Part shown: in pieces, positions 3,253 to 19,178 of the stretch
Numbering within the stretch: the first letter of the stretch is position 1
Layout of the letters: every line of letters begins with the position of its first letter
Source of the DNA: a virus
DNA: 20,005 nucleotides
IMG/VR virus record: IMGVR_UViG_3300027906_000202
Span: 1 to 20,005 of that record
Reading direction: 5' to 3' (one strand)
Made by a program: the position numbers and the translations under genes
Notes under the pieces: model-generated
The model's database searches: none
Told to the model about the DNA's origin: nothing
The model's input: the letters and a program-made list of their open reading frames with translations, nothing else

Positions 3253-3519
3253 ATGTCTATGAGAAAATCGAGGAGCATTTTAGAAGAGTTAAACTCTATC
3301 AGTGTTGATAGAAGTCGTCATCATGTTCTCGAAAATAGAGTACAACATTTAGTTAGTAGTGCTGAAAACATTAAAGCAATTCTACGTGAATCTTATAGTC
3401 CAGAAGAAGCATTGGACTTAGAACGTAGACTAATAAACTCAATTAAATCAGGTGATTCTAAAAAATTCTCTCGTGGCATAAAGAAAGTTGTTGCGGAGAG
3501 CGAATCAAATGAGAGTTAA
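3253..3519 (+). CDS. Small helical protein of unknown function, late-expressed
   Basis: This 88-residue charged protein is probably mostly helical. Its centre (about 23-80) contains a patterned segment with SYSPEEALDLERRL and a KKFSRGIKK stretch. No catalytic motif, membrane segment or signal peptide is visible. It resembles small proteins seen downstream of the helicase in marine T4-like phages, from memory and unverified. It has its own late promoter (3223) and a weak AGGA ribosome binding site. It ends 11 nt inside the next gene, so the two are probably co-translated. Function is unknown. Confidence 0.75.
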   Translation: MSMRKSRSILEELNSISVDRSRHHVLENRVQHLVSSAENIKAILRESYSPEEALDLERRLINSIKSGDSKKFSRGIKKVVAESESNES

Positions 3520-4759
3520 GGACATTATAGAAGCACCAGGTGACGGTAGAGGTAGAGCGGCAGGTTCTGCCAAAACACAATACAAAAAAGATGGTACTCC
3601 CGGAGCAGGCAGAGTAGCAAGATCCAATAACCAATTTAGAAGTGTACCAAAAGGCACTAACGATCCTAGAGGATCTGACAATCCTATGAATCCTTTAGGT
3701 GATCCAGGTAAGCAAAACCAAGCGGGTCAAGACACTAAATTTAAAAGAGCAGACCAACAAATTAATCAAAAATTTGGAAATGATGATTCATTAGCAGGTG
3801 GTTCTAGCAGAATAGCACAATTCAAAAAAGACAAAGAAGAAAAAGCAAGAATGCAAAAATCACAGACCAAAGGTGATATTGGCAGATTTGCAGATGACCG
3901 TGCTTTATGGAAACCTGGTAAAGTTATACAACACCCAAATGGTTTAATGTATCAACTATTAGGTAAAAAAGAAGGTTGGATAGAAGTAACAGGACCTACA
4001 GTAAATAAAAAAACAGGAGAAGTAACAAAACCTGAATTGGCAAAACCAACTCCAGGCGGAAAAGCGGCTCCTATGGATAGTCAGTTAGGTAAAGACCTTA
4101 ACACATTATTAAAAGATCCAAAAGCAAATATTGACCAAACTATAGGTTCTAAAATTAAAGGTGCATTACAAAAAGGCGTTGCAGGTGCGGCGGCTAAAGC
4201 AGGAATGAGCAATTTAGCATCTAAAACAAGATCCGATCCAGATGCAAGTGCGGCACAAAAAGTTGGTGCTACAGTAGGTGCTGGTATTGGTAGAGCAATG
4301 GCAAACGTATTAAGAAGACCTAAAGGACAACCTGCACCAGATAAAAAACAAATGTCAAATGTTGGTAAATTAGACATGAAAGCATTTCAATCTAGGATAA
4401 TGAAGTCTCAAGACCCAGCAGAAAAATTGGCACTTGCAACAGATATGCTTGATAAAATTGCTGTACAAAAATCAAGAAACATAAGTGTAGAACCATATTT
4501 AGATAGTTTAGGTCCTATGTTAAAAGCAAGTGGTTTACAAAAAACTAATGCACAAGAATACCAAGCACTTGTTACAAAAGCAAGAGGCATGAGAGAGGCG
4601 GCATTTAATTACTTTAACAAGTTAATAGAAACAGTAGGAATAACTTGGGAGCAATTAGGTTATAAAGTAGTACTTTCAGAAAACAAAGGTGATGACATTA
4701 TTTTAATTCCTACAAAAGACATCGAATTACAACAACTTAAATCATTAGCAGGAGTTTAA
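3509..4759 (+). CDS. Basic low-complexity protein with capsid-targeting-like N-terminus
   Basis: The start is placed at ATG 3509, behind GGAGAG at 3495-3500, rather than at the upstream in-frame TTG at 3488, giving 416 residues. The N-terminus MRVKDIIEAPG fits a T4 capsid-targeting sequence with an I-I-E|A site for a gp21-type prohead protease. Residues about 10-135 are polar, basic and probably disordered. Residues about 210-270 are rich in Ala/Gly/Lys and could form an amphipathic or membrane-active helix. A more ordered C-terminal part starts at about 285. No enzyme motif is visible. Context and N-terminus suggest a packaged internal or core protein, which is an inference. Confidence 0.8.
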   Translation: MRVKDIIEAPGDGRGRAAGSAKTQYKKDGTPGAGRVARSNNQFRSVPKGTNDPRGSDNPMNPLGDPGKQNQAGQDTKFKRADQQINQKFGNDDSLAGGSSRIAQFKKDKEEKARMQKSQTKGDIGRFADDRALWKPGKVIQHPNGLMYQLLGKKEGWIEVTGPTVNKKTGEVTKPELAKPTPGGKAAPMDSQLGKDLNTLLKDPKANIDQTIGSKIKGALQKGVAGAAAKAGMSNLASKTRSDPDASAAQKVGATVGAGIGRAMANVLRRPKGQPAPDKKQMSNVGKLDMKAFQSRIMKSQDPAEKLALATDMLDKIAVQKSRNISVEPYLDSLGPMLKASGLQKTNAQEYQALVTKARGMREAAFNYFNKLIETVGITWEQLGYKVVLSENKGDDIILIPTKDIELQQLKSLAGV

Positions 4760-4760
4760 T

Positions 4761-6035
4761 ATGCGAGTTCAAGAGTTCACTAAACCTCTTGTTACTCGGT
4801 TGCTAACTGAAAGTGCCGTTGTAGAAGCAGAAGGCAAAAACACCCACTTAGAACATTTGGAAGATAACATATTCAACAAAGGATATGATGGAGCCAAAGA
4901 AGCAGTAAACTATTTGTACAGTCTACATGAAATGTTAGACGGCAGTACAAACTCACCAGTATCAATGACAACAAAATGGGATGGTGCTCCAGCCATTGTA
5001 GCAGGTAAAGATCCTGAAACAGGTAAATTTTTTGTAGGTACTAAAGGAGTATTTGCACAAAAACCTAAAATTAATTTTACTGAGAAAGACATAGAAGCAA
5101 ATCATCCAGGAGAAGGGTTACAAGACAAATTAAAATTAGCATTGATGACATTAAAAAAACTTAAATGGAATACAGTTGCACAAGGTGATTTTTTATTTGC
5201 AAAAGATACATTAAGTATGGATGATATAGACGGTGAAAATTATTTAACTTTTACACCTAATACTTTAACTTATGCAGTACCTTCACAAACACAATTAGCA
5301 TCAGATATTGTAAAAAGCGATATTGGTATTGTATGGCATACAGAATATGTAGGCGGCCCTACACTAGCAGACACTACAGCAAAGTTTGGCTTTGATAGTA
5401 GTGTGTTAGGAACAGCACCGGGTGTTTGGCATAGAGATGCAATTATTAAAGACCTAAGTGGTACAGTAACATTTACAGCAGGTGAAAGTGCAGATATAAT
5501 GCAGGCTATTAGTATTGCAAATGATTATTTAAAAAGTATAGACGGTGAAACATTTGCATGGTTACAACAAGGAACAGATTTAATAGGTAAAAACTTTTTA
5601 CTACAACTTAAAGCACATGTAAACAATGCCATTAGAGCAGGTGGATTTGAACAAGATCCAAATAAGTTTGCACAAGACTTTATACAAAAGTATGTAGACT
5701 TTATGACTAAAGAAATAGACAAAGTAAAAACACAAAAAACTATAGATGCTAAAACAGACTTAATGGTTAAGGGAGTTGCATTTATTAGGCAACACTTACA
5801 AGGAATAATTAGTGTATATGATTTATACTTAAAAATAATAGAAGCAAAAGTTAAAATAGTAAGAAAACTAGAACAAATAAGAGTAATGGATACATTTGTA
5901 CAATCAGATGATGGTTTTGAAGTTACTGGAGAAGAAGGTTTTGTTGCTGTAGACAGAATGGGTAATGCTTTAAAAATAGTAGATAGATTAGAGTTTAGTA
6001 GATTAAACTTTGATACAGGAAAACCAGCAACATGA
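4761..6035 (+). CDS. Ligase-like covalent nucleotidyltransferase (DUF6267-type), possibly packaged
   Basis: This 424-residue protein carries the signature of the DNA/RNA ligase and capping-enzyme superfamily. Motif I is K72-W-D-G75, where K72 would carry AMP or GMP. FVGTKG follows at 91-96, and QGDFLF at about 141-146 could be the acidic motif III. Near the C-terminus EGFVAVDRMG (392-401) followed by LKIVDR (404-409) resembles motifs IV and V. The long spacing between motifs I and IV is unusual and implies a helical insertion. From memory it matches the phage family DUF6267. The N-terminus MRVQEF is capsid-targeting-like, with L-T-E|S and V-V-E|A cleavage candidates at 15-23. AGGAG at 4750-4754 supports the start. 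It overlaps the next gene by ATGA. Confidence 0.7.
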   Translation: MRVQEFTKPLVTRLLTESAVVEAEGKNTHLEHLEDNIFNKGYDGAKEAVNYLYSLHEMLDGSTNSPVSMTTKWDGAPAIVAGKDPETGKFFVGTKGVFAQKPKINFTEKDIEANHPGEGLQDKLKLALMTLKKLKWNTVAQGDFLFAKDTLSMDDIDGENYLTFTPNTLTYAVPSQTQLASDIVKSDIGIVWHTEYVGGPTLADTTAKFGFDSSVLGTAPGVWHRDAIIKDLSGTVTFTAGESADIMQAISIANDYLKSIDGETFAWLQQGTDLIGKNFLLQLKAHVNNAIRAGGFEQDPNKFAQDFIQKYVDFMTKEIDKVKTQKTIDAKTDLMVKGVAFIRQHLQGIISVYDLYLKIIEAKVKIVRKLEQIRVMDTFVQSDDGFEVTGEEGFVAVDRMGNALKIVDRLEFSRLNFDTGKPAT

Positions 6036-7110: not shown

Positions 7111-7656
7111 ATGAGAATCAACGAAGTTTTAAATAGTAAAAATTATATCACAGAAGAAGACACTATGACTTTGGCTGATGTACAAGTTATGTATGGCGAT
7201 GATCCTGAAATGATGGCGGCTATACAAAAAGCAAAGATGTTACCAAAAATTAAAACTTGGGACCAAGCAATAGATAAAGCAAGTGCTGATATGCGTAGAA
7301 ATGCTAACAAAGGTCAGCAAGCCGCACCAGATAGAAAATTTGCATCTAACAGTAGAGCAAAAGGATGGGACGATGAAACTCATGGTCATTTAAGAAAAGC
7401 AAAAGCAAAAGCCGCCGCAAAAGCACAAAAACCTATGTCAGGTGATGGCGAAACAGGTGAAATTAATAGAGCCGCTGGCACTTTCATGAAGTCTGTTGGC
7501 GATGCTATGGATACAATAAAACACGGTTCAATGGGAGACATCAATACTGCTGTAGACAGAGGAAAACACGTAGGTAAAGACGGCATGGAACTGTGGAATG
7601 TAACGGCAAAAACAAAACGTTCTAAAGACAGAGGCGGAAACTTCGGCTCTAGATAA
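7111..7656 (+). CDS. Basic late protein with capsid-targeting-like N-terminus
   Basis: This 181-residue, strongly basic protein has no recognised domain. The N-terminus MRINEVLNSKNYITEED fits the shared pattern, with an I-T-E|E cleavage candidate at 13-16. The middle contains an Ala/Lys-rich run (about 90-107) that would be helical and DNA-binding in character. The end is rich in Lys, Arg and Gly. There is no ribosome binding site before ATG 7111 and a late octamer sits 5 nt upstream. An alternative start at 7165, behind a purine-rich AGAAGAAG, would remove the targeting sequence. A packaged DNA-associated protein is the best guess. Confidence 0.75.
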   Translation: MRINEVLNSKNYITEEDTMTLADVQVMYGDDPEMMAAIQKAKMLPKIKTWDQAIDKASADMRRNANKGQQAAPDRKFASNSRAKGWDDETHGHLRKAKAKAAAKAQKPMSGDGETGEINRAAGTFMKSVGDAMDTIKHGSMGDINTAVDRGKHVGKDGMELWNVTAKTKRSKDRGGNFGSR

Positions 7657-9289: not shown

Positions 9290-9589
9290 ATGAGATTAGA
9301 CGAAATAGTTAATGAAGAAGAAATTTTTGAAGCCCGAATGGTTTGGCGTAAAATGGGTAAGAAAATTAAACGTGCTGTAAGGTGTACAACCGGCAGACGT
9401 AAAGGTAGAGTTGTGAGTAACCCAGCACAATGTTCTGCTCCCATTAATATGAAAAAACGTATGGTATTAAAAAGAACAAAAGCAAAAATGGGTAAACGTC
9501 TTAGCAGAAAAGCAAACAGAACTAAAAGACTTAATCCAGCAAGTAGACGTTTAAGACAGTTAAACAGAAGTACTAGAGCCAGAAGATAA
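9290..9589 (+). CDS. Very basic, probable DNA-binding packaged protein
   Basis: The start is set at ATG 9290, one base after the preceding stop, instead of the in-frame ATG at 9278. This gives 99 residues. MRLDEIVNEEEIFEARM fits the capsid-targeting pattern, with an ideal I-F-E|A cleavage site at 12-15. What remains is dominated by Lys and Arg, including a VRCTTGRRKGR segment and a second cysteine at about 45 (PAQCSAP); a two-cysteine metal or disulfide site is possible. The C-terminus is almost histone-like. DNA condensation in the head is the natural inference. Similar proteins occur in marine T4-like phages, as I recall. It overlaps the giant gene by 1 nt. Confidence 0.82.
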   Translation: MRLDEIVNEEEIFEARMVWRKMGKKIKRAVRCTTGRRKGRVVSNPAQCSAPINMKKRMVLKRTKAKMGKRLSRKANRTKRLNPASRRLRQLNRSTRARR

Positions 9590-12500
9590 TGAAGTTTAAA
9601 GATGTTAAAACATTAGAAAGCATATTACTGGAATACGGAATGAAGTCTGGTTCCAGCACACCAACTGCTCAACAGCAGACCGGTGCAAATGCAAAAGCAA
9701 ACAAAACTAAAAGTCCAACAACATCTAACACACCTAAAAAAGCAGACCAAGGCAGTCCAACTGTAGGCGATAAAAATGCACCAGAGCCTATAGAGCCACA
9801 ACAACAATCAGCAAAAGATATTGAAAAAGATGCAGTAATTGTAGGAAAAGATAATAAAAACAAAAAAGTTGTATCACCCGTAGGTCAAGGAAACTTACCA
9901 GATGCAATGGTAGTACAAGATGATGATGGCGAGTATGAAGTTATTGACCAAAATGAAAAGGTTGATGCACTATCCCCAGAAGATGCAGAACAAGTAGGAA
10001 AAGATCCTAGTTTACTAGCAAAAGGAAAAGGTGCCTTTGGCGCCGGAGCAGGTGCTGTTGATACAATAGCAAATTTAATGGCATCAAAAGACCCTAATGT
10101 AAAAGAAGGCAAAATACGAAAACGTATTAATAAAAAAGCACTTAATAAATTAAAGCCTAGAGTAAGACAAGAAAAAGGTAGAGTTAAAAAACTTGCAAAA
10201 ATAGGATTAAAAGAAGCACCTGAAAAACTATTCGAAATAAATTTTAGAAATAAGGACGTTATTAACAGTTCACTTGATGCACAAATACGTTGTGGTTGGG
10301 AGGCAGAAACTGTATGGGAAAATATATCAGGACCTAGTGATGATATAGACAACTTAACTCTTAATGAAGTTGATGAACAGTTTGGCGGCGTTGATTGGGA
10401 CGGTTTATCAGAAAGTTATACAGAATGGTTGTATGATAACAAAGTAGAAGAATTTATAGATGACCTAATTCAAGAATTCATCAACGAACGTGAAGATGAC
10501 GAAGATTATATCAATGAATTTATAGAAGATGAAGGCATAGAAGAATCAGATTGGGATGATTACAGAGAAGGTGTACTAAGAACTGAATACGGTGATGAAA
10601 GATTTGAAGAAGAAGGTGCTGATGAATTGTCTGAATTGTATGGATATGAAGATGAAAATTGGGCAAGAGAATATGTTGATGAATATAGAGGCAGTGACTT
10701 TAGAGAATACTTAAGAAACATAGCAGAAGAAGATGATGATATAAAACAAGCGGCATACGAAGAAGCCAGTGAAAATTATGATTATGACGATTATATCAAT
10801 GACACATATTACAGCATGAGTGAATTCTGTGATAATTGGGACATTGATTACAGTAGCGGAGGTAATTTAGAAGAAGTAGCAGACAAATTAGAAGATTGGA
10901 TATCCGGCCAGAGTGCTTTCCACGACCATAGACCTGACACAGGTTCATATGGAGATACTAGTGGAGATACTACAGAATATGCTGTTGAAACAGATAGTAG
11001 TATTGATGGATATGGTACTGGTGCTGAAATTATATCACCTGTGTTTAGTACTCCAAGAAGAATGTTAAAAGAAATGGACAAGTTCTTTAAGTTTTTACAA
11101 GGTGAAGGAGTTGTAACAAATAATAGTACTGGATTACACATTACTATGAGTTACTTTCCACAAGAAGGCGAAACTGTAAGTCATGAAGAAGGTTCAAGCA
11201 ACGTAACAGCAAACAAAGTTAAGATGGCTGTATTGCTAGGAGACCAATACTTGTTAAGTCAATGGGGAAGGGACCGCAACACTTATACAAAGAGCCAATT
11301 AAAAGAATTACAAACAGCAATTCAAAACTTAAAGAGAGAAGGGCGAGGAACAGATGCAATTAAAGAAGCAGAAAAATTTTTAGCAAAACACATCAGTGAA
11401 GATAAGTTCCGCTCAATACATTTTAAAGGTCAAACAGACCAAAAAACAAAAACAAAATTAATAGAATTTAGAATAGGTGGTGGAGAAGACTACCATGAAG
11501 AATTTAAAAAAGTGTTTAGTTCTGTAGTAAGATATGCTACTACAATGATTGCTGGACACACGGATCAATATCAAGGTGATTATGTAAAAGCATTACTTCG
11601 ATTAATGAATAACATGGATAAAATAGCAACCAGCGATGAAGAAGAAGTAGAAAATTTAAAAAATCAACATTCAGACTACGCAGGACATCCTATTTTAGAT
11701 ACACATAAAGCAATAGTAGGTGCTAAACACTATTTAGATTTTACTCAGAAAATGCTTAATTCAATGGAAGATTTACACAAAGCATCATTGTATCTAGATC
11801 CAAAAGCAGACAAGAAATGGAAAAAGGAATGGGTAGACTTTTTAAAAGGTACCGGCAGTAATTTGGATGATTATGATAGTAAAATAAGAAAAGCATTAGA
11901 CAAGATTCCAGGTAAAAAAATTACAGAAGATAAAGATAGAGAAGACCAGTCTATTAAAGCATATATGCAACCTGAAACAACACCACCTAGTGAAAGAGCA
12001 TCTGATAAACGTAAAGACGGTTTACGAAAATTTAGTGAAGCGATGGGTATGGTAGCAGTAGATATTAGTAATAAGACTGCAAGGTCACAACCTAATGCTA
12101 AAAGTATTGGAGCATTGAGAAGTTTCTTAAAAGAGCATGAGATTTCAGATACTGAATTAGACTTAAACATAAGAAATGCTTTAACTGATATAAACTTTGG
12201 CTCTGGTGAAGATACTAAAAACACTCAAAAAGCCAAACTGGAAACACTTAGACATGGTATTAATACTCTTATACAAAGAGATATTATATCTAGACCAGAT
12301 TATGCAACTAGTCCGCAAGTCGAAGCAATGGCTAAAGGTCTTTGGAATGCTTTTAATGATGAAAAATTTGATGATAGAGCAAGAAAAGAATTAATACAAC
12401 TAGTAATTAATATGCGTACAGGTGACCTATCACAAGGTTCTGTGGACGATACAGAAGTTAAAAGAGATGTAGCAATACTTCTTGACCAAGCAAAAGACAA

Positions 12501-15500
12501 AAGAGAGTTTAATGACTTTTATAATACAATAGTTGGAAGAAGGTTAACCACTGGTCACCCAGATGGAGTTTTAACACCTGGTAGTATTTTCTCCAAAGCA
12601 GATTTTGATAAATTGGTAAGTTTCCTTAAAGGGTTTGAATCTTATACACAACCTGTAAACAGATATCACAATCCTAATTTATATAATGATGATAGTTATG
12701 AAGAAAATTCATTAAGCAAATACACATTATTGTTAAGAAGAAGATTTGAATATTTAGAAAATCAGTTTGATAGTGACAAATCATTAGCAACACAATCTCT
12801 AGAGAGAATGTCTAAATTAGTAGAAACTTATTATCAAGAAAATCAATCAGGACAGTTTGAATGGCCCGACATATTTGGTATAGATGAATTAGAATTAAGA
12901 AATCCAGAACCAACTGATCCTAGAGTTAAAAAAATGTCTGAAGAAGATAAAGATACAATATTAGATTTATATGGAGACAATGACGGAACACCTTATTTAG
13001 GAATAAATTCGTATAAAGTAGAAAGAATTCAAAGTTCATTAGATGATATTGCTAGAGGTGATGTAGAACGAAGAACAATTTCTAATATGAGTGAATTTGT
13101 TACAGATAGTATTAGAGAGGCACTAGGAGCCTATTATAGAAACAAAGAAAGATATCCAGAGTATTACAAATTTGAAGAAGTTAAAAATCTTATTAAAGAA
13201 AGATTTGAAGGCTTGCGAGATTTTATGCGAGGCATTGACAAAATTTTTGTAGATAATGGATTTGATAGTCAAGATGAAATTATTAAACGTAAGCAACAAA
13301 TAGACAAAGACGCAAAAGAATTTGCAAAACTTCAGAGGAATAAACCTTTAGCAACTGTTAATTTACCTTCCCATTCTATAATGTATATGGACAACATTTC
13401 ATATGAAAGATTTGAAGAGTATGTTGACGAAAGAGAAAATTCAGATGATACTGATGCACCAGTGAATACTGCAAGAGATGTAGTTAAAAAAATAATTGCG
13501 GGTGCTAGGCAAGTGAATGGTCATGTAAATTCCGGACATGCATCAATATATGTAGTACCAGCGGCACATTGGGGTCCATGTGGAGATGCTGTTAATGGAA
13601 TGGAAATTATTAAACTACAACAACGAGTTGGTAACATGTCCCAAGCATGGCGTGTAAAAAATTACCATGCCTTGCTTGAAAAGTTTGCAGAAACATATCA
13701 AGAAAATTTCGAACGATTACAAAGGACAGACTTATATAAAGTTATTGATGGAACAGATAGGTCAAAATTAAGCAAACACTTTGGAATACAGTTTACTGGT
13801 AAATTAGATGGTAGAACAGGAATGGGAGATGTAGAAGACTTAATCCCAAGAGAGAAGTTAAACAATAAGTATTCAGGTGAACCATTAGATAGAAATAGTG
13901 CTATTAGTTGGGCTATAAACAATGACGAAAATGAGAAGAAACAATTCCACGCATATGATTTTGCAAAGTATCACGGTAACGAAGCAGATAAAATTAAAGA
14001 ACTAGTTGCTAAAGAAATGAAAGACAACGATAGAAGTTTTGGTGTTGCTATACAAAAAGTAATGGAGCGAAGTCCAAAAGGCGTAATGGTAATAGATAAT
14101 GACAAAATTGCAAAAGCGGCTGGTGTTGAACACATGGAACGTGAAGCATCTAACACTATTCAAGATGCCACAAATTGGGGCAACCTAGCAGACTTCTTTA
14201 AAATAGAAAGAGGTGTAGACAATCAAGGTCCAAACATGTTAGAGAAAGTTTCTAGAACATTTGACGGTGACCATAATTGGAGACCAGAGCCAAACCCAGA
14301 TGCTTGTTGTTTGGAAAGATGGGTAGCATGTGTAAAACATGCCACCGAGTATATCAAAATGAATTATACAGTTAGTGCTGGAAACTATTTTAGAAAAGAA
14401 AATGACGGCAGTCCGGGTGATGACGTAGGTTCTATTTATGGTGATTCAGGAAGTAATCCTCCACCAAGCAGAAGAGGACGAGCAGATGGTGTCGGCATCA
14501 CATATAATAGCGATGAAGAAGTAACTGAACAAGATTACGAAAAAGTCAGATCCGAATATATTGATTTTGATAGGATGATGAATGCGGGTATGCAAAATTA
14601 TATGGTCAGACCCGACGTAAACTTATTGGTAGGTTTCTTGAAGAATCCAAACAATGATGAGGAATTCAAACAGGCTGTTTTACAAAGCATGATGAAAGAA
14701 AAATTACTAGGTTCAGAACCAAACGATTGGCAAGGTCATTTAGCAAGAGCCAGACAGTTTTATGCAGATAGATATAATGAGAGTGTTTTTGATAGATTCG
14801 ATAAACTACCTTTACAAGAACAATTAATTATTTTAGAAAAATCAACTGTATTATCTGAGATAAGTGATACTAAAAAACGTGAACTAGAATATGAATTAAG
14901 GAATGAACCTAAAAATAACTATGCTGTAATTATAAATGGTAAAACGTGGAAAATAGTTTCTAGTGAAGACAGAGCAAAAAAGATGGTTAACACACTTGTA
15001 GGAAAAGGCAAAGATGCTAGGTATAGTGAAACAGGTCAACCAGTTAATGAAAGTGTACCAACTATTAAAACAACAAAAATTTTAAATGATATATTAGCAG
15101 ACCATTTTCCAGTAGGTGACCTTAAGAAACAAATGTTAGCCTTTCAGGCTATACCTATTCCTCAAATGTTAAATCAGTTTAGAGAGTTAAGAGGAGAAGC
15201 AGGTGATGATGCATGTGCAAGAGGCATTGTAAGATACTATGTAAATGCATTACCAAAAGAACAACAAGACCAAATAGAGTTAAATGAATGGGCAAAAAGC
15301 AAAGTTAGAAGTTTAATAGAATCCAAAGGTATTATGGGCAGAGTACAAGGTGATACTTTTTTAAAAGGAGATGATAGATTAGAGTTTCAAAGTGTAACTT
15401 TATACCCTACAGAAGAAATGGAGTTTAACTCTCCTGAACAAAGAGATGATTTTATACAACAATTAGAACAAGAACTAAACAGTCAAATAGAATGGACAAA

Positions 15501-16647
15501 TACTCCTAATAAAGGTAGTTTAGCATTTGGTGTGGCAATACTAACAGACCCTGCATTAGATGATAAAATAACATATTGGGGAAGATACTTTAAACAAAAA
15601 ACAGCAGATATGATGGGTAAATGGAGCAATAGCCAAGTACCTGTGGGTTGGAAACTACAAACTGCTGGAGCAATGAAGTTAGATATTGGTATTGATCCAC
15701 AGCACTTGATTAAAACAGATGACCCCTTTAATGGTGTCTTAGACGTCATACAAGCAGTCAAAACTAACTCTGCCGGTAATGAACTATCTGAATCATTAGT
15801 CAACGCACTAGAGACTATACATACGCAAGAACACCCAGTATTTCCAGGTCAAATAGCAAACTTACCAGCATTAAGAGATTATTTTGGTGAGATTATGGGT
15901 CCAGTAGCATTAATGAGTGAAATGGTAGGTGGACAGGCAGATAATGCCAAAGCAGATTTATTAAAAGGTTTACCTTGGTCAAATTGTAGTATATTTTGGC
16001 CCATGGCGATGAATGCCCCACTAGTTGATAGTTACTTTACAGCACCAGACGGTACTAGAGTAGGTATTAGTAGTAAAGGCGGTAAAGGTGCAAAAGCAAG
16101 TGTTAAAAATATACAAGATGCTATATTAAAAGCACCAGAAGAATTAAAAGCACAATATCCTACAACAGTTAATGTTATTAATATTGTACAAAGCAATAGT
16201 GCTAAAGATGGTCCATTTAGATTAGCAGAATTATATAATATTTTACCACAAGGATTAGAAGAAGAAATAAATGGATATATTCAAGAAGGAAAACAAGACT
16301 ATGCTGGATTAAGTCCTGCATGTACAGAATTATTCAATTACGGAACACCAAGACAAGATGTACCAGGATTTAATACAGGTTATGCTATGTTGGCTCTACT
16401 TGCTAAAAAAGTAACAAAAGCAATAAACACATCAGGTCCAGAATTTGGACAAGGCTGTGTAGCATTCCTTAACCAATCCAGCATTGTACAGTTGTATTGC
16501 AAAATGGGTAAAATGGGTGACGATGCTAGAGTAACAGGATGGGAGGCTGTATATCCGCCAAACTTCCAAGGTACAGTAGAAATAGATGGCAGTAAAAATT
16601 ACTACAGTTCGAGAATAGGTGGTAAGTTTGCCTTTGGATTTAAGTAA
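9589..16647 (+). CDS. Giant multidomain protein with amidoligase-like domain
   Basis: This is a single uninterrupted 2,352-residue protein, over a third of the window. Its start MKFKDVKTLESILLEYG is capsid-targeting-like with L-L-E|Y at 13-16. Residues about 18-100 are Gln/Lys/Pro-rich linker, and 160-215 are strongly basic. Residues 235-243 (CGWEAETVW) and 465-484 (VETDSSID, GAEIISP with E480), NSTGLH (512-517) and EFRI (626-629) match amidoligase_2 (ATP-dependent amide-bond-forming) signatures. Between the first and second of these lies an extremely acidic stretch (about 250-450). A small domain with YAVIINGKTWKIV lies at about 1780-1825. The C-terminus has D2147...SSK2163 in a nuclease-like spacing. 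No membrane helix is seen. Amidoligase is fairly likely; the rest is unknown. Confidence 0.8.
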   Translation: MKFKDVKTLESILLEYGMKSGSSTPTAQQQTGANAKANKTKSPTTSNTPKKADQGSPTVGDKNAPEPIEPQQQSAKDIEKDAVIVGKDNKNKKVVSPVGQGNLPDAMVVQDDDGEYEVIDQNEKVDALSPEDAEQVGKDPSLLAKGKGAFGAGAGAVDTIANLMASKDPNVKEGKIRKRINKKALNKLKPRVRQEKGRVKKLAKIGLKEAPEKLFEINFRNKDVINSSLDAQIRCGWEAETVWENISGPSDDIDNLTLNEVDEQFGGVDWDGLSESYTEWLYDNKVEEFIDDLIQEFINEREDDEDYINEFIEDEGIEESDWDDYREGVLRTEYGDERFEEEGADELSELYGYEDENWAREYVDEYRGSDFREYLRNIAEEDDDIKQAAYEEASENYDYDDYINDTYYSMSEFCDNWDIDYSSGGNLEEVADKLEDWISGQSAFHDHRPDTGSYGDTSGDTTEYAVETDSSIDGYGTGAEIISPVFSTPRRMLKEMDKFFKFLQGEGVVTNNSTGLHITMSYFPQEGETVSHEEGSSNVTANKVKMAVLLGDQYLLSQWGRDRNTYTKSQLKELQTAIQNLKREGRGTDAIKEAEKFLAKHISEDKFRSIHFKGQTDQKTKTKLIEFRIGGGEDYHEEFKKVFSSVVRYATTMIAGHTDQYQGDYVKALLRLMNNMDKIATSDEEEVENLKNQHSDYAGHPILDTHKAIVGAKHYLDFTQKMLNSMEDLHKASLYLDPKADKKWKKEWVDFLKGTGSNLDDYDSKIRKALDKIPGKKITEDKDREDQSIKAYMQPETTPPSERASDKRKDGLRKFSEAMGMVAVDISNKTARSQPNAKSIGALRSFLKEHEISDTELDLNIRNALTDINFGSGEDTKNTQKAKLETLRHGINTLIQRDIISRPDYATSPQVEAMAKGLWNAFNDEKFDDRARKELIQLVINMRTGDLSQGSVDDTEVKRDVAILLDQAKDKREFNDFYNTIVGRRLTTGHPDGVLTPGSIFSKADFDKLVSFLKGFESYTQPVNRYHNPNLYNDDSYEENSLSKYTLLLRRRFEYLENQFDSDKSLATQSLERMSKLVETYYQENQSGQFEWPDIFGIDELELRNPEPTDPRVKKMSEEDKDTILDLYGDNDGTPYLGINSYKVERIQSSLDDIARGDVERRTISNMSEFVTDSIREALGAYYRNKERYPEYYKFEEVKNLIKERFEGLRDFMRGIDKIFVDNGFDSQDEIIKRKQQIDKDAKEFAKLQRNKPLATVNLPSHSIMYMDNISYERFEEYVDERENSDDTDAPVNTARDVVKKIIAGARQVNGHVNSGHASIYVVPAAHWGPCGDAVNGMEIIKLQQRVGNMSQAWRVKNYHALLEKFAETYQENFERLQRTDLYKVIDGTDRSKLSKHFGIQFTGKLDGRTGMGDVEDLIPREKLNNKYSGEPLDRNSAISWAINNDENEKKQFHAYDFAKYHGNEADKIKELVAKEMKDNDRSFGVAIQKVMERSPKGVMVIDNDKIAKAAGVEHMEREASNTIQDATNWGNLADFFKIERGVDNQGPNMLEKVSRTFDGDHNWRPEPNPDACCLERWVACVKHATEYIKMNYTVSAGNYFRKENDGSPGDDVGSIYGDSGSNPPPSRRGRADGVGITYNSDEEVTEQDYEKVRSEYIDFDRMMNAGMQNYMVRPDVNLLVGFLKNPNNDEEFKQAVLQSMMKEKLLGSEPNDWQGHLARARQFYADRYNESVFDRFDKLPLQEQLIILEKSTVLSEISDTKKRELEYELRNEPKNNYAVIINGKTWKIVSSEDRAKKMVNTLVGKGKDARYSETGQPVNESVPTIKTTKILNDILADHFPVGDLKKQMLAFQAIPIPQMLNQFRELRGEAGDDACARGIVRYYVNALPKEQQDQIELNEWAKSKVRSLIESKGIMGRVQGDTFLKGDDRLEFQSVTLYPTEEMEFNSPEQRDDFIQQLEQELNSQIEWTNTPNKGSLAFGVAILTDPALDDKITYWGRYFKQKTADMMGKWSNSQVPVGWKLQTAGAMKLDIGIDPQHLIKTDDPFNGVLDVIQAVKTNSAGNELSESLVNALETIHTQEHPVFPGQIANLPALRDYFGEIMGPVALMSEMVGGQADNAKADLLKGLPWSNCSIFWPMAMNAPLVDSYFTAPDGTRVGISSKGGKGAKASVKNIQDAILKAPEELKAQYPTTVNVINIVQSNSAKDGPFRLAELYNILPQGLEEEINGYIQEGKQDYAGLSPACTELFNYGTPRQDVPGFNTGYAMLALLAKKVTKAINTSGPEFGQGCVAFLNQSSIVQLYCKMGKMGDDARVTGWEAVYPPNFQGTVEIDGSKNYYSSRIGGKFAFGFK

Positions 16648-16648
16648 T

Positions 16649-17650
16649 ATGCGATTAATAGAATTACAGATAGAACGTCCAAAGTCAGACAAAAACTTCC
16701 CAAGAAATATAATGCCTCAAATAAGAAAAGGCGATATACAAGATTCACCTTTTGAATACTCTAAAGAAAAAATAGATATAGAGAAACTAATGCCTGTACA
16801 AAACCAACGTGTACAAGGTATGCATGATAGAGCAAAGAAGGGTTTTGATGATGGTAGCATAAGACCTATTGTAGTTGATAAAAATAATTATATTGTAAAT
16901 GGACATCATAGATTTGATGTTGCATTACAAATGGGTTTAAAGAAAATTAAAATATTAAGAGTTGATGCTACAATAGAAGACTTAATTGACCACTTTAGTA
17001 ATACATCAAGTGATGCACCTACATTTGAAGAAATAATGAAACAAAAGTTAGCAAAAGCAATGGAAGGTGATGTTGTAGATTTCCCTGGAACGTATTATAA
17101 AAAGGAATATGTTACTATAAATGGCGTAAAGATGCTCAGAGATGTTTGGGACTATATGAGCCAAGACAGAGAACATGCCCATGGATATGATGATAATTAT
17201 GTTCCAACCCATAAAGGTCTCACTAATTTTACAGGCGATGAAGATCCAAGAATTTTAAAGAGAGCATATCAAATGGAATTGAGAAACTTTATAGATGAAC
17301 TTGAAAACAATGACTTTGATATGGACCCACAACCATTTATAGATGAACTAGACCGAATAGATGAAGATTGGGCAGAAAGATACAATCTAAATCCTAGTGT
17401 TAAAAAATATGTAGATGATAACTTATGGAAATTGTCTACTGTAGACGTAAAAGATTTAGATGACGAAGCACACGATGACCAATTTGGTAGAGTAATTGAT
17501 GTTGACCCAGAAGATGCAGATAGTGTCCATTTAGATGACCCAATAATAGTACATGCTGATGGAAAAACAGTACTAGATGGCTTTCATAGAGTTTATAAAG
17601 CAAAAGAGTTAGACGTAAAAGTATTACCAGCATATATACCTAAGCAGTAA
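16649..17650 (+). CDS. Protein with two ParB-like domains and capsid-targeting-like N-terminus
   Basis: The start is set at ATG 16649, one base after the giant gene's stop, not the in-frame ATG at 16619 inside that gene; this gives 333 residues. The first ParB/sulfiredoxin-like domain (about 42-107) has IDIEKLMP, then IRPIVVD and the nucleotide-binding NGHHR at 84-88. A second, more divergent one (about 285-330) has DPIIVHADGKTVLDGFHR (DGFHR 310-314). The acidic middle (about 190-290) may be a linker. ParB-like folds bind or hydrolyse CTP/ATP, nick DNA, or act as kinases, so the activity is open. MRLIEL resembles the shared N-terminus, though the L-I-E|L site is weaker than in the others. Confidence 0.75.
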   Translation: MRLIELQIERPKSDKNFPRNIMPQIRKGDIQDSPFEYSKEKIDIEKLMPVQNQRVQGMHDRAKKGFDDGSIRPIVVDKNNYIVNGHHRFDVALQMGLKKIKILRVDATIEDLIDHFSNTSSDAPTFEEIMKQKLAKAMEGDVVDFPGTYYKKEYVTINGVKMLRDVWDYMSQDREHAHGYDDNYVPTHKGLTNFTGDEDPRILKRAYQMELRNFIDELENNDFDMDPQPFIDELDRIDEDWAERYNLNPSVKKYVDDNLWKLSTVDVKDLDDEAHDDQFGRVIDVDPEDADSVHLDDPIIVHADGKTVLDGFHRVYKAKELDVKVLPAYIPKQ

Positions 17651-18986: not shown

Positions 18987-19178
18987 ATGAAAATTAAAGA
19001 TATCATAATTAATGAAACAGCATCAGTAGGAGGCATGAGTGCAGGAGCAGTTGCAACAGTAGTTAAGCCTATTGCTAATGATGTCCAACGTGTTGTTCAA
19101 AAACCTAAGAAACCTAAAAAGATAGGCAAAAAGAAACCAGGACCTAAAGGTAAAAAAAGTACTTTACTAAGGAGATAG
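18987..19178 (+). CDS. Small basic protein with capsid-targeting-like N-terminus
   Basis: This 63-residue protein starts MKIKDIIINETASVGG, which fits the shared N-terminal pattern with an I-N-E|T cleavage candidate at 8-11. A Gly/Ala/Val stretch (about 14-28) could be membrane-active or a short helix. The C-terminus (about 39-63) is a lysine/proline-rich tail. Small size, positive tail and targeting sequence together suggest a packaged DNA-associated peptide similar in concept to T4 internal proteins. The start has no Shine-Dalgarno and lies 5 nt after a late octamer. The next gene begins 1 nt after the stop, behind AAGGAGA within this gene. Confidence 0.75.
   Translation: MKIKDIIINETASVGGMSAGAVATVVKPIANDVQRVVQKPKKPKKIGKKKPGPKGKKSTLLRR

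Follow-up and report, generated by a model that had tools for sequence, protein, structure and literature searches.

A predicted ligase-type nucleotidyltransferase with a candidate capsid-targeting leader in marine T4-like phages

Marine T4-like phages carry a widespread gene whose product belongs to DUF6267 (PF19782), also known as phrog_455 and, in cyanophages, as T4-GC 71; neither Pfam nor PHROGs gives it a function. Here, we describe a full-length member of this family from a 20,005-base virus record, referred to below as the window. Structure models indicate that the protein almost certainly has the fold of the ligase-type nucleotidyltransferases, and its N-terminal sequence is probably a capsid-targeting propeptide of the kind that T4 uses for proteins packaged in its head. 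The family itself was already known, without a function; the ligase-fold reading, from models and motifs, and the leader reading, from sequence patterns, are made here.

Family membership and active-site motifs

The gene lies downstream of primase and DnaB-like helicase genes in the window, and its translation is 424 residues long. The protein matches DUF6267 with an E-value of 1.3e-102 (344.4 bits, against a curated cut-off of 27) over model positions 1-376 of 376, and it matches phrog_455 with an E-value of 1.1e-96. Relatives occur in 468 of 50,697 phage records, mostly those of Synechococcus and Prochlorococcus phages, and in hundreds of marine contigs. The literature searched, which covered few subscription journals and preprints, contains no mention of DUF6267; PF19782 and phrog_455 do not occur in the 12 papers listed out of 34. 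Conservation was scored on 361 relatives from viral and genome contigs plus five named phages, aligned to the profile. The profile matched 363 loci, with a usable full-length start in 267; seven named loci were dropped deliberately, and others for having no start codon by rule, for truncation or for an X. The most divergent relative, L363, is 26% identical. Some relatives (L328-L363) come from metagenome-assembled genomes (MAGs) labelled archaea, Planctomycetota, Chloroflexi and others; these are probably phage contigs binned into MAGs of those labels.

The features of the gene, all on the + strand, are as follows; counts are of relatives that share the residue.

4761..6035, +: DUF6267/phrog_455 protein, 424 aa, with a predicted ligase-type covalent nucleotidyltransferase fold and an N-terminal leader (Pfam, PHROG, AlphaFold2, VIA-align)
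4761..4811, +: residues 1-17, leader MRVQEFTKPLVTRLLTE, a possible propeptide for capsid targeting whose predicted cleavage site follows L15-T16-E17 (sequence, model, leader count)
4845..4865, +: conserved box H29-x-x-H32-x-E34-D35, immediately N-terminal to the core (H29 360/360, H32 359/360, D35 358/360 covering)
4974..4991, +: motif I, K72-W-D-G75-A-P77, with K72 predicted to accept the nucleotide (K72, D74, G75 and P77 each 361/361; strand-loop-strand in the model)
5043..5045, +: K95, an invariant basic residue (361/361) that would take the place of the motif Ia Arg, by position
5181..5189, +: motif III-like Q141-G-D143, with D where most ligases have E (D143 361/361, Q141 360/361)
5256..5273, +: P166-N-T168..Y171, an invariant stretch particular to the family, lying between motif III and H193 (P166, N167, T168 and Y171 361/361)
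5337..5348, +: H193-T194-x-Y196, candidate motif IIIa (H193, T194 and Y196 360/360 covering)
5478..5879, +: helical insertion, residues about 240-373 (~130 residues), six helices in the model, reduced in the short relative L362
5934..5945, +: motif IV, E392-G-F-V395 (E392, G393 and V395 359/359 covering)
5973..5987, +: motif V, K405-I-V407-D-R409, with V407 for the second lysine (K405 359/359, R409 358/358)

An earlier note, made from the DNA letters, had picked out K72-W-D-G75, a GDF segment at about residue 142 and EGFV...LKIVDR near residues 392-409 as ligase motifs I, III, IV and V. The translation bears this out at every point, with K72-W-D-G75-A-P77, G142-D143-F144 preceded by Q141, E392-G-F394-V395, and L404-K405-I-V-D-R409; the distance from motif I to motif IV, given as about 320 residues, is exactly 320. 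The note had staked its reading on the conservation of K72, and this residue is identical in 361 of 361 relatives. Because the protein belongs to a defined Pfam and PHROG family and these residues are invariant across its relatives, the K72/D143/E392/K405 motifs are not chance matches.

The active site departs from that of well-studied ligases in motifs III and V. The motif III Glu is D143 in all 361 relatives, a conservative change, and the second lysine of motif V is V407 (of 359 relatives, 351 have V and 8 have I), so that the KxK typical of the T4 Rnl2 family is missing. With these substitutions, normal ATP-driven adenylylation cannot be assumed. According to excerpts of PMC3149579, the corresponding lysine of T4 Rnl2, K227, binds the AMP phosphate, and a K227Q mutant is poor at adenylyl transfer yet still seals pre-adenylated ends. 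There is a natural precedent for V407 in a Diplonema ligase, whose motif V reads K175-x-V177 (PMC4599027, in part), and the invariant R409 could supply the charge that is missing at V407. Ligase-like chemistry is thus plausible for DUF6267 from its residues and models.

Predicted fold and nearest structural relatives

An AlphaFold2 model of the window protein, built with 73 sequences, has a pLDDT of 88.9 and a pTM of 0.85. It was compared by VIA-align with PDB chains pre-ranked by Foldseek. The top match is the Naegleria gruberi RNA ligase (PDB 6vt1, 5cou; Z 8.7, rmsd 3.8, 184 residues aligned); other matches include TbREL1 (1xdn, Z 7.9), T4 Rnl2 (Z 7.5) and T4 Rnl1 (Z 7.2). By the tool's own warning, a best Z of 7-8 is often reached by models that have no clear match. 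tRNA ligases are also among the matches, and the best 50 listed are all polynucleotide ligases. Since a Z near 8 is not decisive alone, a second model (pLDDT 83.4) was made for L362, a family member that is both short (323 aa) and divergent, with 28-37% identity to its relatives. Its top match is again the Naegleria RNA ligase (Z 9.0, rmsd 3.8, 177 aligned), and its best 50 matches listed are likewise all polynucleotide ligases; the two models share much of one family's alignment and are not fully independent. The structure comparison proposed in the earlier note therefore returned a ligase-type nucleotidyltransferase fold in both models, and together with the invariance of K72 this supports the note's reading of a divergent, ligase-like nucleotidyltransferase.

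Other searches were less informative. Foldseek found no match in the PDB at an E-value of 0.001 for either model and by itself would not have settled the relation to ligases; the ligases among the weak direct hits of the window model were adenylation domains of LigA (4glw, 1b04, 1tae, 5fpo). A capping enzyme was considered and put low, as guanylyltransferases appeared only as weak Foldseek rows for the L362 model. Against PDB chains, neither phmmer with the window protein nor hmmsearch with a family alignment (72 of 73 chosen relatives; L263 omitted) found a ligase, the best hmmsearch hit being ribosomal eS8, which spans only the charged helical part. A comparison by hhalign with T4 Rnl2 as a single-sequence template gave an E-value of 0.29 over an unrelated region, i.e., no profile similarity was detected.

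In the window model, strand 68-72 has K72 as its last residue, strand 139-147 contains D143, E392-G-F-V leads into strand 393-397 and K405 falls within strand 403-406, a placement consistent with motifs I, III, IV and V. The unusual spacing between motifs I and IV is due to the helical insertion at residues about 240-373; in L362, the same Lys-to-Glu distance is 237, ~80 residues fewer. The earlier note had seen no obvious OB-fold, and indeed the ORF stops 15 residues after R409, with no further strands in the model. The C-terminal OB-fold with motif VI that is typical of DNA ligases is therefore absent from both translation and model.

Likenesses to characterized ligases are structural and partial. 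The window protein is about 11% identical to the Naegleria RNA ligase, whose aligned range reaches the chain end (residue 339), and to TbREL1; it differs from them in lacking the second motif V Lys, the motif III Glu and the N-terminal OB domain, and in having the long helical insertion. With T4 RNA ligase 2 (rnlB) and RNA ligase 1 it shares motifs I and IV, the first Lys of motif V, and the fold. It differs from T4 Rnl2 in the replacement of K227 by V407 and of E99 by D143, and the N-terminus of T4 Rnl2 has no capsid-targeting leader. We also know of no capsid leader on RLIG1 (human C12orf29, Yasminevirus), which otherwise offers a useful comparison. As described in excerpts of PMC11494293, RLIG1 has a KxDG motif and a His as motif IIIa, the viral enzyme, an RNA ligase, lacks the domain with which T4 Rnl1 binds RNA, and its top Dali hit is the Naegleria RNA ligase; the window protein has the same KxDG, a His at the motif IIIa place and no recognizable RNA-binding domain. 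The spacing of 13 between E392 and K405 equals that between E240 and K253 of viral RLIG1, whereas motifs III and IIIa are 21 residues apart in RLIG1 and 50 in the window protein.

The N-terminal leader and its distribution

The targeting N-terminus claimed in the earlier note holds up as a motif: residues 8-25 are predicted to be disordered (pLDDT < 50), and the leader ends in an L/I-x-E site directly before S18, with cleavage predicted at L15-T-E17/S18 (slashes mark cleavage sites). In T4, the gp21 prohead protease cuts after L/I-x-E, and positions 4 and 7 of the IPIII leader serve mainly targeting, and positions 8 and 10 processing (PMC9026906, in part). T4 ipII and ipIII begin with MKTYQEFIAE/A; DUF6267 N-termini of like pattern include MKKFSTFITE/Q and MKTFKKFIAE/D. 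Many DUF6267 proteins thus share the leader type of T4 IPII, IPIII and Alt: positions 4 and 7 are bulky or aromatic, position 8 is L/I and position 10 is E, and the predicted cut follows L/I-x-E. In contrast, the leader of the window clade, roughly M(K or R)FxEISKPLVTxLLTE/S, is longer and looser than the T4 form, with its predicted cut at 17, and the cargo is unrelated to those T4 proteins.

Leaders were counted on 113 representatives at 85% identity, using patterns drawn up after the family had been viewed, so that the counts on DUF6267 are not blind. The strict T4 positions (a bulky residue at 4, an aromatic residue or His at 7, L/I at 8 and E at 10) occur in 59 of the 113 representatives, compared with 3 of 4855 internal methionines of neighboring proteins. 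Either form, i.e., a relaxed version of the T4 pattern or that of the window clade, occurs in 84 of 113 representatives, in 23 of 4855 internal methionines and in 1 of 73 gp41 helicases. Broken down by source scan, either form is present in 22/24 (window), 45/49 (DLP6), 16/25 (genome contigs), 1/7 (HTVC008M) and 0/8 (P-HM2, the cyanophage type) representatives; strict T4 spacing is found in 0/24 window-scan versus 43/49 DLP6-scan representatives. Because the patterns were written post hoc on DUF6267, leader counts over the rest of the genome are the better test. Of the 206 ORFs on a 137-kb contig, 7 begin with a leader, where 1.2 are expected, and these include DUF6267 and an adjacent HAD phosphatase; on an 83-kb contig of the window clade, the figure is 5 of 80 ORFs, DUF6267 among them, where 0.5 are expected. 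Of the 19 genes called in the window, 7 carry one, versus 1 of 147 internal methionines.

A T4-type prohead protease (PF03420) and a capsid protein (PF07068) were each found in 7 of 12 relatives' contigs, including the 83-kb window-clade contig; the five contigs without them are each < 100 kb, and no gp21-type protease was found in the window itself, a 20-kb fragment. The occurrence of a T4-like leader in phages that encode a T4-type prohead protease gives the idea of injection a concrete basis. On the sequence pattern, we consider the N-terminus a probable capsid-targeting propeptide, and the protein is likely to be packed in the head of the window's phage.

Published virion proteomes bear on this in part. 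S-SZBM1_141 (DUF6267) is absent from the 30 proteins of the S-SZBM1 virion proteome, although 139 and 140 are present (PMC9146016), and SCREM2_gp87 (DUF6267) is absent from the 52 proteins of the S-CREM2 virion proteome (PMC10665884). Both phages are cyanophages, and the cyanophage-type members of the P-HM2 scan have no leader. Cytidylyltransferases of the DUF6267-linked kind have been detected in virions of S-SM1 (PMC3037559), S-SZBM1 (PMC9146016) and S-CREM2 (PMC10665884). The literature searched, with its small share of subscription journals and preprints, yielded no virion proteome of a leader-bearing relative and no leader on, or virion form of, such a ligase; a text search of the DLP6 paper found no mass spectrometry.

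Gene neighborhood, alternative readings and possible role

In HTVC008M, Melnitz, S-PM2, P-HM2, Syn9 and S-SZBM1, uvsX and gp41 are found a short way upstream of the DUF6267 gene; in DLP6, both are no more than 10 kb from it. Around it in the window are the following leader-bearing genes.

3509..4759, +: upstream neighbor, 416 aa, leader MRVKDIIEA (no Pfam or PHROG match, searched as a 423-aa version from 3488)
7111..7656, +: downstream ORF, 181 aa, leader MRINEVLNSKNYITEE (ORF list, leader scan)
9290..9589, +: basic protein, 99 aa, leader MRLDEIVNEEEIFEA (leader scan)
9589..16647, +: 2352-aa protein, capsid-type leader MKFKDVKTLESILLEYG (no Pfam match below E 0.4); residues about 470-520 recall what we take to be an amidoligase motif pattern
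16649..17650, +: 333-aa protein, ParB-like similarity (phrog_8071, phrog_620), weaker leader MRLIELQIE (PHROG, leader scan)
18987..19178, +: 63-aa protein, leader MKIKDIIINETA (ORF list, leader scan)

Neighbors were counted for the 80 representatives with at least 2.5 kb on either side, 59 outside the window clade and 21 within it. Outside the clade, a nucleotidyltransferase with an FGRxNPPTxGH motif is found near DUF6267 in 53 of 59, a Zeta/AAA_33-type kinase in 10 and a HAD phosphatase in 7; within it, the 21 representatives show 3 weak nucleotidyltransferase hits, one kinase and no HAD phosphatase, and the window has no linked nucleotidyltransferase. Kinase and phosphatase identities are Pfam matches, those of the HAD proteins being weak; the Pfam scan of neighbors covered 90 of 125 listed proteins. 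We rejected the idea that a kinase, a phosphatase and the ligase generally form one operon (kinases 11/80, HAD phosphatases 7/80; 1/21 and 0/21 in the window clade). Several of the neighboring nucleotidyltransferase, kinase and phosphatase proteins start with a similar leader, which suggests an injected set working on nucleotide or nucleic-acid ends.

Individual neighborhoods offer further observations. HAD-type phosphatases of ~200 aa with T4-like leaders lie beside DUF6267 at L257:5396-5998, L353:9463-10068, L286:2457-3062 and L293:4845-5447. Zeta-toxin/AAA_33-type P-loop kinases with leader-like N-termini adjoin it at L081:13724-14383, L166:5104-6372 and L317:4171-5013; Pfam E-values for kinases of this type next to DUF6267 range from 4e-9 to 3e-13. 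Directly upstream of DUF6267, and with leaders, are proteins at L273:5211-5996, L280:5204-5998 and L081:10929-11984, in which D...ExK-like motifs seen by eye recall PD-(D/E)xK nucleases; the L273 protein and its L264 relative have no Pfam match. In S-PM2 (L084:7992-9771, L365:5992-7767), the DUF6267 gene is two ORFs in NC_006820 and one 591-aa protein in LN828717, a discrepancy that is a frameshift or sequencing difference. The "cytidyltransferase" label of the S-PM2 gene was rejected for DUF6267 itself, as the LN828717 protein consists of DUF6267 with a distinct part after it, and NC_006820 has the gene in two pieces.

Several readings other than a packaged ligase have to be weighed. The enzyme could form the Lys-NMP adduct and pass the nucleotide to a protein or small molecule, e.g., host RNA polymerase or a metabolite, without sealing nucleic acid, with the HxGH neighbor acting in the same pathway. 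The model has no recognizable RNA- or DNA-binding domain or OB-fold, the FGRxNPPTxGH protein is nearby in most representatives outside the window clade (53/59) and is joined to DUF6267 in the 591-aa S-PM2 protein (LN828717), and T4's injected Alt is a protein-modifying enzyme (PMC9026906, in part). We nevertheless hold such an NMP-transferase to be unlikely: the nearest folds, among the matches listed, are all polynucleotide ligases, and the linked nucleotidyltransferase is missing or unrecognized in the window clade (3 weak hits in 21, none in the window). We give a similarly low standing to an ordinary, unpackaged ligase working inside the cell like T4 Rnl1, Rnl2 or gp30, with a leader that is coincidental or otherwise used. 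This would suit a gene that in most contexts lies just downstream of the replication genes gp41, uvsX and polymerase, the rarity of the leader among cyanophage-type (0/8) and HTVC008M-scan (1/7) members, and the two virion proteomes, S-SZBM1 and S-CREM2, neither of which lists DUF6267. It sits poorly with a leader frequency more than a hundredfold that at internal methionines, with T4 positions kept in 59 of 113 representatives, and with the adjacent-gene cytidylyltransferases detected in S-SM1, S-SZBM1 and S-CREM2 virions (PMC3037559, PMC9146016, PMC10665884).

The catalytic residues themselves bear on two further possibilities. A pseudo-enzyme, in which the fold was kept for structural work in the head and catalysis was lost, could explain V407, the D for E in motif III, and the loss of the motif IV lysine to D398 (61 of 73 sequences). 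Against this, K72, D74, D143, E392 and K405 do not vary in 359-361 relatives down to 26% identity, which fits catalysis, not a scaffold, and motif V of the Diplonema RNA ligase sequence likewise reads K-x-V (K175, V177; PMC4599027, in part); we regard loss of activity as quite improbable. The slimmest chance goes to an NAD+-dependent ligase whose released NMN would be returned to NAD+ by the linked, NMNAT-like nucleotidyltransferase. In LigA, the NMN-binding part precedes the core, and the conserved H29xxH32xED box occupies that place here; LigA adenylation domains (4glw, 1b04, 1tae, 5fpo) are also among the weak direct Foldseek hits, and the linked family is annotated as NMNAT-like (phrog_3462, 2e-4; PMC10665884, in part). 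However, VIA-align ranked ATP-dependent RNA ligases first, and the partner nucleotidyltransferase is absent from the window.

The explanation we favor, with fair rather than high confidence, is a divergent covalent nucleotidyltransferase of the polynucleotide ligase superfamily that is packed in the head, cut at LTE/S, injected, and active on nucleic-acid ends. Of its parts, covalent nucleotide chemistry seems quite likely for the window protein, and the odds that nucleic-acid ends are the substrate are about even. Residues 1-17 would dock the protein into the prohead core, the T4-type prohead protease would cleave after LTE17, and the mature enzyme would be ejected together with the DNA. In the host, K72 is predicted from the fold and the invariant residues to accept a nucleoside monophosphate, with AMP the most likely one; D74, K95, D143, H193, E392 and K405 would form the pocket for it. 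In the least certain step, the 5'-phosphate end of an RNA or DNA may receive the nucleotide, with a joined or a 5'-adenylated end as the outcome. Host-inflicted breaks, e.g., in tRNA or in the incoming genome, might thereby be handled before phage gene expression.

If the capsid leader on DUF6267 is what it appears to be, nucleotidyltransferase activity would be delivered before expression, unlike in T4, whose RNA repair enzymes are made after infection. A bolder and doubtful extension is that marine T4-like phages inject a ready-made, capsid-borne kit for nucleic-acid end repair, in which the DUF6267 enzyme is accompanied, in some of these phages, by leader-tagged partners: HAD phosphatases, P-loop kinases of the Zeta/AAA_33 type and HxGH nucleotidyltransferases. 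Were this true, host-cleaved RNA or incoming DNA would be repaired or re-tagged before the first phage transcript, and RNA-cutting defenses would fail from the first minute. The leader would also make it easy to list, from sequence, which proteins uncultured marine phages inject, and a widespread gene of marine T4-like phages that previously had no function gains, through its predicted ligase-type active site, a direct biochemical test.
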